A DNA stretch of 64,000 nt from Pseudomonas sp. Seg1 (GTDB lineage: Bacteria; Pseudomonadota; Gammaproteobacteria; Pseudomonadales; Pseudomonadaceae). The stretch covers positions 5,887,501 through 5,951,500 of the forward strand of contig NZ_AP021903.1 in assembly GCF_018326005.1 (NCBI RefSeq), written 5' to 3'. Below are positions 16,093 through 21,082 of this stretch, piece after piece; position 1 is the first letter of the stretch; each line of letters starts with the position of its first letter. A program made the position numbers and the translations under genes. The notes under the pieces are model-generated. The model had not been told where the DNA came from. It saw only the letters and a list, made by a program, of their open reading frames with translations, and did not search any database.

Positions 16093-16255
16093 GGCGTTTC
16101 GAACCTCTTGAATTCTGACTTGAAGACAGCCTTCAGATGACCTGCCCGCAGAGCGCTGCACGATGTCGGACGCGCCAGTGGCGTCGGCAAAGCGGTATTT
16201 CAAACGGGCAAGGAAGGCAAAGCGATACAGATCCGGCGGAGCCGGCAGAAAAGAT
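16093..16255 (-). promoter_or_regulatory. Putative trpG attenuator region
   Basis: Between the leader stop and trpG lies a GC hairpin, CCGGC-GGA-GCCGG on the plus strand (16233-16245), 11 bases after the leader stop, followed by a mostly pyrimidine stretch. A similar GCCGGC hairpin follows the gph tail before trpE. No clean T-run follows, so a textbook intrinsic terminator is not seen. I call this regulatory mainly because of the leader peptide and its duplicate. Confidence 0.5.
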
Positions 16256-16342
16256 TCAGGCGCGCCAACGCCAGCGGGCGTGTGCCTTGATGACTTGATC
16301 CAGAAGTTTGCTGGTGATCAACACGGGGAAGGTCTCGTTCAT
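16256..16342 (-). CDS. Candidate trpGDC leader peptide (28 codons)
   Basis: A minus-strand ATG at 16342, with CCGGAA just upstream, opens 28 codons ending ...[11 protein letters not shown] and TGA (16256-16258). Two of the last five codons are TGG, as expected of a ribosome-stalling leader. The same ending, [14 protein letters not shown], recurs as the last residues of Gph immediately before trpE, and DNA is clearly similar over about 75 bases, so both were probably derived from one element. Attenuation of trpE and trpGDC has been reported for P. putida (recalled), which supports this reading. It is too short for usual gene callers. Translation is not proven. Confidence 0.72.
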
Positions 16343-16499
16343 ACGTTCCGGCACAGTAACTTAGCTGGGCGGAGCGTGCAATATGGCCGGGCCTGCGGGA
16401 GATAAAACCGGGGGAGGATTCGCGACCGATGGCAAAAGGCCGGAAGTTTTTGGTACTGTCGTTTCGTTCACCTACAACAATAAATAAACGGACTTGCTC

Positions 16500-18407
16500 A
16501 TGATCAAACAGACGTTGTTTGTACCGCTGGCCGGATGCTTGCTCGCACTGGCCTGCGCCCAGGCGAATGCAGCGCCAAATCCCTACTCGAATTTCATTGT
16601 CTTCGGCGACAGCCTCAACGATGCCGGGACCTTCACCGACACCGGCGGCCCGGCCGGTGCCACTCAGCGCTACACCAACCGTACCGGCCCGGTTTATCTG
16701 GACGGCAGCGGTGAACAGCGCTCGCTGAATGCCACCCAACTACTCGGTGGCCGCCTCGGTTTCACCCCGGACCAGACAGCGTCTTCCAGTTCGGCTGTGC
16801 GCGCCAACGAAGGCCTGCCGGATGGCAACAACTGGGCAGTGGGCGGATATCGTACCGACCAGATTCTCGATTCGATCACCACTCAATCCGCGACCGGCGA
16901 ACGCACCCGCGCAGGCTACTTGCCGTCGAACGGTTTGCGCGCCGATCCGAACGCGCTGTACTACATCTCCGGCGGCGGCAACGACTTCCTGCAAGGGCGG
17001 ATTCTCAGCCTGCCCCAGGCCAACGCCGGTGCCGACCGATTGGCCGACAGTGTGCAAGCGCTGCAAACCGCCGGCGCCAAATACGTGATGGTCTGGCTGT
17101 TGCCTGACGTCGGCCTGACCCCGGCCATCAACGGCACCCCGTTGCAGGCGTTCAGCAGTCAGCTCGCCAGCCAGTTCAACAGTCAACTGGTGACCCGCCT
17201 GCAAGGCATCAACGCCGAAATCATTCCGTTGAACATTCCGGCGTTGTTGTCGGAAGTGTTCGCCGACCCGGGGCGCTTCGGCCTCGCCACCGATCAAAAC
17301 CTGACCGCGACCTGCTTCAGCGGCAGCAGTTGCCCGGAAAACGCCCGTTACGGCATCAACAGTGCGACACCGGATCCGAGCAAGTTGATCTACAACGACG
17401 GCGTACACCCGACCGAAGCCGGACAGAAACTCATCTCCGATTACGCCTATTCACTGCTCGCCGCGCCGTGGGAACTGACACTGTTGCCGGAAATGGCCCA
17501 CGCCACCGTGCGTGCGCATCAGGATGAGCTGCGCAGCCAATGGCAGGCGGACTGGGAGAACTGGCAAGCGGTCGGCCAATGGCGGGCGATTGTCTCCGCC
17601 GGCGGCCAACACTTGGATGTCGACAGCCAAAGCAGCGGCGCCAGCGCCGATGGCAGCGGTTACAACCTGAATGTCGGCGGCAGTTATCGCCTCAACGATG
17701 CTTGGCGCGTTGGCGTGGCAGCGGGCTTCTACCGGCAGAACCTGGAGGCCGGTCATAACGATTCGGACTACAAACTCAACAGCTATCTGGCTACAGCGTT
17801 TGCCCAATTCCAGCAAAACCGTTGGTGGGCTGACGCGGCATTGACCGGCGGCAAACTCGACTACGACAACCTCAAGCGCAAGTTCGACCTGGGCGCCAGC
17901 GAGGGTGCGGAAAAGGGTGATACCGACGGCCATCTGTGGGCCTTCAGCACCCGTGTCGGTTACGACATCGCTCAGCCGGGCAGCGAATGGCATCTGTCGC
18001 CGTTCGTCAGCGCCGATTACGCCAGCGTCGATGTCGATGGCTACTCGGAGAAGAGCAACCGCGCCACGGCGCTGACCTTCGATGACCAGGCTCGCGATTC
18101 GAAACGTTTGGGCGTCGGCATTCAGGGCAAGTACAACTTCACTCCGCAAACTCAGGTGTTTGGTGAGTACGCGCATGAGCGTGAGTACGAAGATGATGTG
18201 CAGAAGGTCAACATCGCGCTTAATACCTTGCCGGCGAATGACTTCAAGCTTGAGGGCTATACGCCGCAGAGCCACTTGAACCGTTTGAGCTTGGGCGTCA
18301 GCCACAAGCTCACGGCGGATCTGGCGCTGCGTGGCGGGTACACATTGCGCAAGGATGATGACTTTACCCAGCAGGGCGTGAATGTTGGGGTGGTACTGGA
18401 TTTTTAA
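16500..18407 (+). CDS. estA: EstA-type autotransporter GDSL esterase
   Basis: Outer-membrane-anchored lipolytic enzyme (EstA in P. aeruginosa, EstP in P. putida), 635 residues from the ATG at 16500. A signal peptide ends at about residue 24 (AQANA/AP). The nucleophile is S38 in FGDSLND, which becomes Ser14 of the mature protein, matching the EstA numbering I recall. The block-V pair is D300 and H303 in [10 protein letters not shown]. The passenger runs to about residue 330. A 12-strand-type autotransporter barrel occupies the last 270 residues, ending in VVLDF with the terminal aromatic residue used for barrel insertion. It stands between trpG and trpE, divergent from trpGDC. In P. aeruginosa EstA affects rhamnolipid production and motility. 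Confidence 0.93.
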
Positions 18408-18713: not shown

Positions 18714-20192
18714 TCAGTCCGGGGTTTGCTCGGCCAGGGCCACGGCGCGGAACATCGCGCGGCGTTTGTTCAGGGTTTCTTCCCATTCCAGCGCCGGCAC
18801 CGAGTCGGCGACGATGCCGCCACCGGCCTGCACGTGCAACTCGCCGTTCTTGATCACCGCGGTGCGGATCGCAATCGCAGTGTCCATGTTGCCGTTCCAG
18901 GCGAAGTAACCGACTGCACCGCCATACACGCCACGTTTGACCGGCTCCAGTTCGTCGATGATTTCCATCGCACGAATTTTCGGCGCGCCGGACAAGGTGC
19001 CCGCCGGCAGAATCGCCCGCAATGCATCCATCGCCGTCAGCCCTTCTTTCAACTGGCCAGTGACGTTGGAAACAATGTGCATCACGTTGGAATAACGCTC
19101 GATGACCATTTTCTCGGTGAGCTTCACCGAGCCGATTTCCGAAACACGCCCCGTGTCGTTACGCCCCAGATCGATCAGCATCAAGTGCTCAGCGATCTCT
19201 TTGTCGTCCGACAGCAAGTCTTCTTCCAGCGCCAGATCCGCTTCTTCGGTCGCCCCACGCGGGCGCGTACCGGCGATCGGGCGCACGGTGATCAGGTTGT
19301 CTTCGACCCGCACCAGCACTTCCGGCGAACTGCCGACGACATGGAAGTCACCGAAGTTGAAGAAATACATGTACGGCGTCGGGTTGAAACAACGCAGTGC
19401 GCGGTACAGATCGATCGGCGCAGCCTTGAAGTCAATCGACATGCGCTGCGACGGCACGACCTGCATACAGTCACCGGCGAGGATGTATTCCTTGATGGTG
19501 TCGACGGCTTTTTCGTAATCGTCCTGGGTGAAACTGGAACGGAACACCGGATCAGCCGCTTGCTGCTTGCTGAAGTCCAGGCCACGGCGCGGAGTGATCG
19601 GCTGGCGCAATTTCTCCAGCAGTTCCTGCAATTGCGCCTGACCTTGCTCGTAGGCATCAGTCTGCGAAGGATCGGCCAAGACGATCGCGTGCATCTTGCC
19701 GGCAAGGTTGTCGAACACCACGACAGCGTCGGAGACCATCAGCAAAATGTCTGGCACACCCAGCGGATCCGGGTTCGGGCATTTGCCCAAGCGCTTCTCG
19801 ACATAACGCACGCAGTCGTAACCGAAGTAACCGACCAGGCCACCGTTGAAACGCGGCAGGCCGGCGATGGTCGGCACGTTGTAGCGCGCCTTGAAGGTTT
19901 CGACGAAGGCCAACGGGTCTTCGACGTCATGACTTTCGGTCTCGACGCCGTCGACGGTGATGCTCACGTGATGATCGTGAACCCGCAGCACGGTGCGGCA
20001 CGGCAGGCCGATGATCGAATATCGGCCCCATTTCTCGCCGCCCTGCACCGATTCGAGCAGGTAGGAGTTGGGCTGGTCGGCCAGTTTCAGGTAGATCGAC
20101 AGCGGCGTGTCGAAGTCGGCCAGGGTTTCGCAGGCCAGCGGGATGCGGTTGTAGCCGTCGGCGGCCAAGCGCAGGAATTCTTCGCGGATCAT
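18714..20192 (-). CDS. trpE: Anthranilate synthase component I
   Basis: Chorismate-utilising subunit that makes anthranilate with TrpG, first step of tryptophan synthesis. It has 492 residues. The allosteric tryptophan-binding LLES motif is visible in [10 protein letters not shown], so feedback inhibition is expected. The C-terminal catalytic domain has PSGAP-like [14 protein letters not shown] and the IAGTRPRG segment. RBS GAGG is six bases before the ATG. It is read in the same direction as rpe-gph and begins 71 bases after the gph stop, whose tail carries tandem Trp codons. Confidence 0.97.
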
Positions 20193-20308
20193 AAGGTGCC
20201 TCGTGGTGTGAGGGGCAAATCAGTCAGGTGTGCAAACGCGCCGGCAGGCCGGCCAGGAACAAGTCAGGCGCGCCAACGCCAGCGGGCCAGGGCCTTGATG
20301 ACTTTCAT
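20193..20308 (-). promoter_or_regulatory. Putative trpE attenuator; leader peptide embedded in the gph 3' end
   Basis: The last codons of gph read ...[19 protein letters not shown], with three TGG codons. An internal ATG at 20308 would give a separate 14-residue leader ([14 protein letters not shown]). The stop is followed after about ten bases by a GCCGGC-AG-GCCGGC hairpin (20240-20253 on the plus strand) and then the trpE RBS. The arrangement parallels the free leader in front of trpG. Ribosome stalling at the Trp codons could therefore control trpE, with gph translation itself serving as the sensor. No T-run follows the hairpin. Confidence 0.6.
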
Positions 20309-21082
20309 CCAGAGTTTGCGGGTGACCACCACGATGGCGTTTCCAGAAGGGGATTGAGAAGCGTCGGGCAACGTTATCTCAGCGGCCGTACCGAGGCAAC
20401 CGGGAATTAGCTTGCGCAGATCGTCGATCACCAGCGCCGGGGATTCCTCGGCAATCGGTCGGCCATGGTTGTAGCCGTAACTCAGTGCCACGCATTTGAC
20501 CCCTGCCGCTTTCGCCGCCAGCACGTCGCTGCGCGAGTCGCCGACGAACAACGATTGCGAGGCCGGGATGTTGGCCATTTTCATCACGAAGAACAGCGCG
20601 GCCGGGTCAGGCTTCTTCTGCGGCAGCGTGTCACCGCCGATGATCCACTTGAAGTAGCGGCCGATCTTCATCTGATCCAGCAACGGCGCGACGAAGCGCT
20701 CCGGCTTGTTGGTGATCAGCGCCATGGCCACGCCCTGCTTGTGCAGCCACTTGAGGGTGTCGCGCACGCCGGGATAAACCACGGTCAGCTCATGGCTGGC
20801 GCCGTAAGCCTCCATGAAAACCTCGAGCGCGTGCTCGGCCTCGACGTCATCCACGGCGGAGTGATCGATGCCACCGGCCAGTGCGCGGCGCACCAGTACA
20901 GGCGCGCCGTTGCCAACCCACTCGCGCACCGCGTCGATGCCCGCAGGTTGGCGGCCGAGGGTGAGCAGCATGTTGTCCACCGCTGCCGCCAGGTCGGGAA
21001 CCGAGTCGATCAGCGTGCCATCCAGATCGAACATCACCAACCGTGGCAGTTTGCCCGGGAACAGCTGCTCAAAACCGCTCAT
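20264..21082 (-). CDS. gph: Phosphoglycolate phosphatase with trp-leader-like C-terminal tail
   Basis: HAD-superfamily phosphatase that removes 2-phosphoglycolate arising from DNA repair. It has 272 residues. The nucleophile motif [14 protein letters not shown] is near residues 18-31, and the ITNKPERF and [15 protein letters not shown] motifs follow. E. coli Gph has 252 residues; the extra C-terminal 25-30 residues match the trpG leader peptide, including the ARWRWRA end. Its start overlaps the rpe stop by four bases (translational coupling). Context with rpe and trpE supports Gph over the related MupP, which in pseudomonads lies next to ubiG. Confidence 0.9.

Follow-up and report, generated by a model that had tools for sequence, protein, structure and literature searches.

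Why does the gph gene of Pseudomonas sp. Seg1 end in a tryptophan-rich tail shortly ahead of trpE, and is it the translation of Gph that senses tryptophan for the next gene? In this study we analyzed the locus in a window of 64,000 nucleotides (the whole stretch of DNA under analysis) and in related genomes. A first-pass annotation of the window had proposed that the Gph tail doubles as the attenuation leader of trpE. Its description of the locus was borne out by the window sequence: on the minus strand the 3' end of gph carries three TGG codons, followed by a GCCGGC hairpin (GCCGGCCTGCCGGC, 20253-20240), and the trpE ATG at 20192 lies 71 nt past the gph stop. An ATG at 20308 stands in the gph frame, 14 codons ahead of the stop. 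Gph of E. coli has 252 aa and that of the window 272 aa; the tail lies outside the HAD domains, since none of the Pfam HAD domains of Gph extends past residue 225. From the comparative analysis described below, the best reading of the tail is that of a trpE leader ORF in its own right, into which gph has grown. In Pseudomonas and close relatives, the trpE leader and a likely promoter at or just past the end of gph seem to form a unit of their own, rather than acting via Gph. We consider it likely that this unit is a self-contained tryptophan attenuator for trpE, made up of a promoter, a Shine-Dalgarno (SD)-like site, a 22-codon leader starting with GTG and a folding RNA, all nested in the 3' end of gph. 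The features of the junction are as follows.

20264 to 21082, minus strand: gph, phosphoglycolate phosphatase (HAD family), 272 aa, the last 22 codons being the trpE leader ORF.
18714 to 20192, minus strand: trpE.
20264 to 20332, minus strand: trpE leader ORF, 22 codons from GTG 20332.
20341 to 20344, minus strand: weak SD-like GGAA ahead of GTG 20332.
20371 to 20399, minus strand: predicted sigma70-like trpE promoter in gph, -35 TTGCCT at 20399-20394, spacer 17, -10 TAACGT at 20376-20371.
20240 to 20253, minus strand: P3 hairpin GCCGG-CCTG-CCGGC, after the leader stop.
20314 to 20319, minus strand: 5' strand of helix P1, GCAAAC, leader codons 18-16 before the stop, proposed from covariation with the 3' strand.
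20232 to 20237, minus strand: 3' strand of helix P1, GTTTGC, directly 3' of P3.

Searches with the TrpE N-terminus gave matches in 118 of 119 genomes sampled across the genus, 115 of 119 across the family and 115 of 145 across the order. With 80 longer stretches added there were 166 loci, of which 157 were retained (132 from Pseudomonadaceae and 25 from other families) once two loci from the DNA search of the window's own genome, a duplicate and six repeats sharing their upstream sequence had been excluded. With a strict pattern, which asked for [AG]RWRW close to the stop of the ORF, the leader was detected in 129/132 Pseudomonadaceae loci and in 0/25 loci from other families; three Pseudomonadaceae loci (L161, L162 and L163) were without a leader by this pattern. 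A looser pattern was discarded for its many chance matches. Both terminal Trp codons are retained in 129 of the 132 Pseudomonadaceae loci. A covariance model built from 36 leaders had matches in 108 of 119 Pseudomonadaceae genomes (one to three per genome), and in the genome of the window it found two strong copies, ahead of trpE and trpG. Among the 185 genomes of a class-wide sample the only match outside the family was a weak one (G418, E 4e-4), and no recognisable trp gene was seen by eye among its neighbouring ORFs. Second copies in G145 (C1:800672) and G159 (C2:3376131) lie ∼211 kb and ∼48 kb away from the leader of trpE and presumably precede a far-off trpG. In Rfam nothing scored above chance at the leader (one match at E 2, far below the gathering score), and a scan of the whole window returned only a tRNA away from it. 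Across loci, an extra ∼15-140 nt between the module and trpE is tolerated; its position is therefore not fixed relative to the start site of trpE. In one other family a similar ending, ERWRWRA before the stop, was observed (L083). Other Pseudomonadales families carry different short Trp-rich ORFs ahead of trpE, with endings such as RWRWRW, RWWRWRTG, TRWRW and CWRW before the stop (L062-L065, L067-L071, L074, L078, L079, L081-L083).

The resemblance of the tail to the leader ahead of trpG, noted in the first-pass annotation, held up as well. A 251-nt query around the tail matched two places in its own genome, itself and the region ahead of trpG, the latter with 83% identity over 93 nt. The corresponding features ahead of trpG are these.

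16256 to 16324, minus strand: trpG leader ORF from GTG, with an SD-like GAGA at 16336-16333.
16353 to 16381, minus strand: trpG promoter TTGCAC-17-TACTGT, predicted from sequence.
16233 to 16246, minus strand: hairpin past the trpG leader, GCCGGCTCCGCCGG.

The ACTGTG of the predicted trpG promoter is retained in most trpG leaders, a count made without a control. In the window, trpE and trpG are split by an opposite-strand autotransporter with a GDSL lipase domain (16494-18407). Across the sample trpG is visible in 95/157 loci, in 74 of them directly after trpE and without a leader and in 21 apart from it, a ratio that is biased because short stretches show trpG only when it is close, and that includes other families. 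Where trpG stands apart, 19 of 21 loci carry a second leader, while L157 and L158 do not.

Where does translation of the leader start? The sequences indicate that it is probably at GTG 20332 (22 codons) rather than at ATG 20308 (14 codons), because an in-frame GTG with an SD-like motif stands ahead of the leader. An in-frame GTG was found 22-27 codons ahead of the stop in 129/129 loci (at codon 22 in 98); our script picked the most distant GTG between 18 and 29 codons upstream, and a few of these may be non-homologous, with that of L112 probably not a start. An in-frame ATG at codon 14 is present in 121/129 loci. An internal start in the gph frame, as proposed earlier, is thus more likely to lie at GTG 20332, with ATG 20308 being largely kept too. 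We also looked at a set of at least 80 named loci, collected with a search pattern that requires an intact leader: among the matches listed, GTG occupies codon 22 in 75/80, a position beyond the end of the search pattern. All 19 trpG leaders contain an in-frame GTG, 17 of them at codon 22, and the ATG is absent from L091, L093, L096 and the window's own trpG leader. SD-like 4-5-mers ahead of the GTG were found in 116 of 122 distinct leaders vs 23.7 expected from shuffles, and a permissive motif list matched in 128/129 loci; in many other clades the motif reads AGAGA or CGAGA. For comparison, GTG makes up 58% of the Val codons in gph bodies (1091/1893; fused set before stop-codon correction). 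Some leaders have five extra codons (L038, L053, L126-L128, L133-L135, L138, L139, L146-L149, L151), and in several the insert can fold into a small hairpin of its own, placed after the P1 strand and before the ATG codon (L147: GGCTCG-AA-CGAGCC).

Two helices of the leader RNA are supported by comparison of sequences, P3 and a covarying long-range helix, P1, between the 5' half of the leader and the segment past P3. P3 begins ∼10 nt past the leader stop in nearly all loci. Its stem scores 15.28 vs 6.79 in shuffled sequence and lies above the shuffle in 110 of 110 distinct sequences; its arms change in concert (GCCGG/CCGGC, GCCGC/GCGGC, ACCGGC/GCCGGT, GTCGGC/GCCGAC). A permutation of the P3 arms gave 15.86 vs 12.32, a comparison biased by the arms having been picked for pairing. 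In P1, the conserved leader stretch GCAAAC is complementary to GTTTGC, and clades with a change on one side tend to be changed on the other as well: CACACAC occurs with GTGTGTG, GCACAG with CTGTGC, TGCAAGC with GCTTGCA and GGCAAAC with GTTTGCC. For 45 distinct 5' blocks the matched score was 15.64 vs 13.56 when permuted, and for the 21 blocks without GCAAAC it was 15.83 vs 12.86 (0/500 permutations as high in either case), P1 having first been spotted in the same data that later served for this test. Two negative controls were not above permutation (477/500 and 141/500 as high). The 5' block also scored above permutation, more weakly, against the spacer before the hairpin (0/500) and against a segment farther downstream (7/500). 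We read these signals as helices P2 and P0; shared ancestry could contribute to them and likewise to P1. P2, the weaker helix, pairs leader codons 18-9 with the stop and spacer (13.3 vs 12.0-12.4; 0/300) and overlaps the 5' arm of P3 in some clades, e.g. in L147. Some of the trpG leaders show a weak P1 or none at all.

A plain MAFFT alignment of 36 leaders has P1 paired in 88% of cells; here the joint covariation score of P1 and P3 beats shuffles (1/500 as high) and slid versions. The count of pairs with two-sided changes was not above shuffles in this alignment, in which P3 is misaligned (467/500 as high). RNAalifold found no useful structure in the full MAFFT alignment; it was uninformative because the spacing past the hairpin varies, and pairing was therefore tested by permutation. 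A classical antiterminator, in which leader codons 8-1 would pair with the 5' arm of P3, was tried and rejected: it showed no covariation, with 298/300 permutations scoring as high. L107 lacks P3 and retains the leader and GTTTGC, with 59 nt from the leader stop to trpE, and thus is a natural test case. In the window's clade, AAACGC of the SD region (20344-20333) is complementary to GCGTTT (20239-20234), which overlaps the 3' strand of P1, so that it may act as a competitor of P1 or mask the SD.

How might such an RNA control trpE? On a short trpE mRNA, ribosomes would start at GTG 20332 and would sense charged tRNA-Trp at the leader TGG codons 8, 18 and 20. Their position would decide between the folds of the leader RNA (P3, long-range P1 or the weaker P2), and the fold in turn would decide whether RNA polymerase gets to trpE. 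In the window's clade the gph frame runs on, so that the last 22 codons of gph double as leader. We infer here the use of the promoter and of the GTG, transcription termination as the output and the choice of the OFF conformer; the leader kept in any gph frame, the GTG with its SD, the promoter-like site, P3 and the covariation of P1 have the support of the sequence comparison.

Folding of the leader RNA from 10 species with assumed ribosome footprints bears on the output step. P1 formed in 8/10 free folds, in 7/10 with the ribosome at the fifth-last codon (TGG), in 6/10 with the ribosome at the stop and in 3/10 with the ribosome at the start. For P3 the numbers were 7/10 (free), 10/10 (fifth-last codon), 0/10 (stop) and 6/10 (start). 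The window's own sequence folded with P1 and without P3 when free, and with P3 and without P1 when stalled. In 9/10 free folds, 3 or more of the leader's first 12 nt were paired with RNA past the leader stop. A stall at the fifth-last TGG hence favors P3, and P3 is blocked when the ribosome stands at the stop; this is at odds with a P3 terminator that is relieved by stalling there. These models would be easier to reconcile with a stall at TGG codon 8 or with an ON function of P3. A canonical intrinsic terminator was not found either: of the 8 nt past P3, 3 are T in 96/122 leaders, and at least 4 are T in 9/122. It might thus be that the Trp leader is translated and folds into P1 and P3 with an output other than an intrinsic terminator, namely Rho-dependent termination, RNA processing, or a P3 that means ON while P0 or P1 hides the first codons of the leader. 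The weak T-tract, the behavior of P3 in the stalled and stop-codon folds and the pairing of the leader's first nucleotides all favor this alternative, which overlaps with the nested attenuator and differs from it at the output step. On the other side stand two reports of attenuation-like behavior. Olekhnovich and Gussin, in the title of a paper of 2001 (J Bacteriol 183:3256), reportedly describe attenuation of trpE and trpGDC in Pseudomonas putida, the same genes in the same genus, and the Trp-codon leader found here fits the link to miaA in that title. For P. aeruginosa, the passages on trpGDC in PMC8297930 describe premature 3' ends beside a potential GTG-started uORF ahead of trpGDC, with an effect above the cut-off only in azithromycin-treated biofilms; a GTG-started upstream ORF is common to both systems, and the one described there precedes trpGDC. 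Neither report says how transcription stops. We regard a different output as a serious possibility, with the balance tilting slightly against it.

The second alternative concerns the sensor, and here the relation between the leader and gph is informative. Of the 129 leader loci, 88 are fused in frame with gph, 39 are separate, 1 is frameshifted and 1 is without gph. In the 39 separate loci gph stops upstream, and the leader lies in frame 0, 1 or 2 relative to gph in 10, 10 and 17 cases, a tally that leaves out L041 and L045 with an unclear relative frame. The separate gph relatives stop after 223-247 codons, measured from where the match begins (omitting L041, L045 and L158, where little of gph is visible). 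L020 is probably frameshifted poor sequence, its TrpE frame also being broken, and was counted neither as fused nor as separate. Among the matches listed for the named loci, 4 P. fluorescens, 2 P. putida, 2 P. syringae and 1 P. chlororaphis are fused, and 3 Stutzerimonas and 1 P. mendocina are unfused. On a FastTree TrpE tree the fusion label needs ∼5 changes, 2 of them forced by well-supported branches, and all 69 tree rows from the core Pseudomonas clade are fused. Since so few changes are needed, persistence of the fusion in this one clade is no evidence of selection. An earlier tally of 101 fused loci and 14 tree changes was rejected, because in-frame stops had been overrun by the tblastn matches; the gph fusions that seemed present in other families (L062, L064, L068, L074) were artefacts of the same kind. 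The argument that selection maintains the fusion in the core clade rested on this inflated count and was dropped.

The predicted promoter ends 38 nt ahead of GTG 20332, within the last 45 codons of gph. The best-scoring sigma70-like site ends 32-47 nt ahead of the GTG in 113/122 leaders, compared with 24/122 in controls shuffled once each and 9/122 in gph-internal controls; the interval was picked after inspecting the data. The hits comprise 79/82 fused, 33/38 separate and 1/1 frameshifted leaders, and 0/1 without gph. A loose regular expression for the promoter matched 80/80 named loci among the matches listed, without a control. The 5' end of the main trpE mRNA would probably lie near 20364, within gph, and the main trpE mRNA would probably be without the gph start because the predicted promoter sits inside gph.

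How do these data bear on the idea that ribosomes translating gph read through the tail and sense tryptophan on a gph-trpE transcript? It is favored by an open frame from gph through the leader stop in 88/129 loci, including every row of the core clade. Against it stand the 39 unfused loci with the leader in any frame, the promoter-like site and the GTG with its SD that are retained inside the fused genes, and the few tree changes, by which the persistence of the fusion in a clade is no sign of selection. Sensing by Gph translation is possible and not needed, and we consider it quite unlikely to be how the locus works. Thus of the original proposal, the tail as a trp leader homologous to that of trpG stands, and Gph translation as the main sensor is not supported. 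A combined picture is also conceivable for the fused clade, though rather improbable: two streams of ribosomes would read the leader, one from its own GTG 20332 and one finishing gph, Gph expression and tryptophan supply would jointly gate trpE, and the switch would be a long-range helix that hides the first codons of the leader, not a U-tract terminator.

With the nested leader as the preferred reading, one would expect constraint at the level of RNA and codons. In 81 fused genes we compared codon use at conserved 4-6-fold positions. For 91 columns from the gph body, 5 from the linker and 9 from the leader, mean synonymous diversity is 0.410, 0.285 and 0.121, respectively, so that the check for synonymous constraint proposed in the first-pass annotation came out in favor of a leader; low diversity is what an element constrained at the RNA and codon level predicts, here with few columns. 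Mean amino-acid conservation in the same genes is 0.87 for the body, 0.66 for the linker and 0.94 for the leader. That the tail is a functional C-terminus of Gph, with its likeness to a leader secondary, could draw on this higher protein conservation of the tail, and is nevertheless scarcely credible given Gph without the tail in 39 loci, the position of the tail outside the HAD domains, the low synonymous diversity and the paralogous peptide ahead of trpG.

In E. coli, the trpL leader is a short peptide that has Trp codons toward its end and is followed by a GC hairpin. The Pseudomonas leader shares with this attenuator the short peptide ending in Trp codons and the GC hairpin. Unlike trpL, in many species it lies within an unrelated gene, and it is probably started by GTG; it also lacks a canonical U-tract and has a long-range helix from codons 18-16 to the segment past the hairpin. 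While attenuation of trpE and trpGDC has already been reported for P. putida, the nesting, the GTG start for trpE and P1 are new as far as could be seen. In the open-licence literature, including the accessible parts of PMC8297930, PMC13367071 and PMC1173090, we found no description of an overlap between gph and a trpE leader; in the main text of PMC8297930 gph does not occur and trpE occurs solely in the title of a reference.

In conclusion, a nested leader would account for the Trp-rich tail of Gph in Pseudomonas and might serve as an example of a regulatory ORF that captured the end of a neighboring gene. It provides an RNA model supported by covariation for the attenuation reported in 2001. 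The proposed mechanism could be tested by compensatory mutations, for which the fused, unfused, hairpin-less and duplicated versions of the locus would be natural controls.
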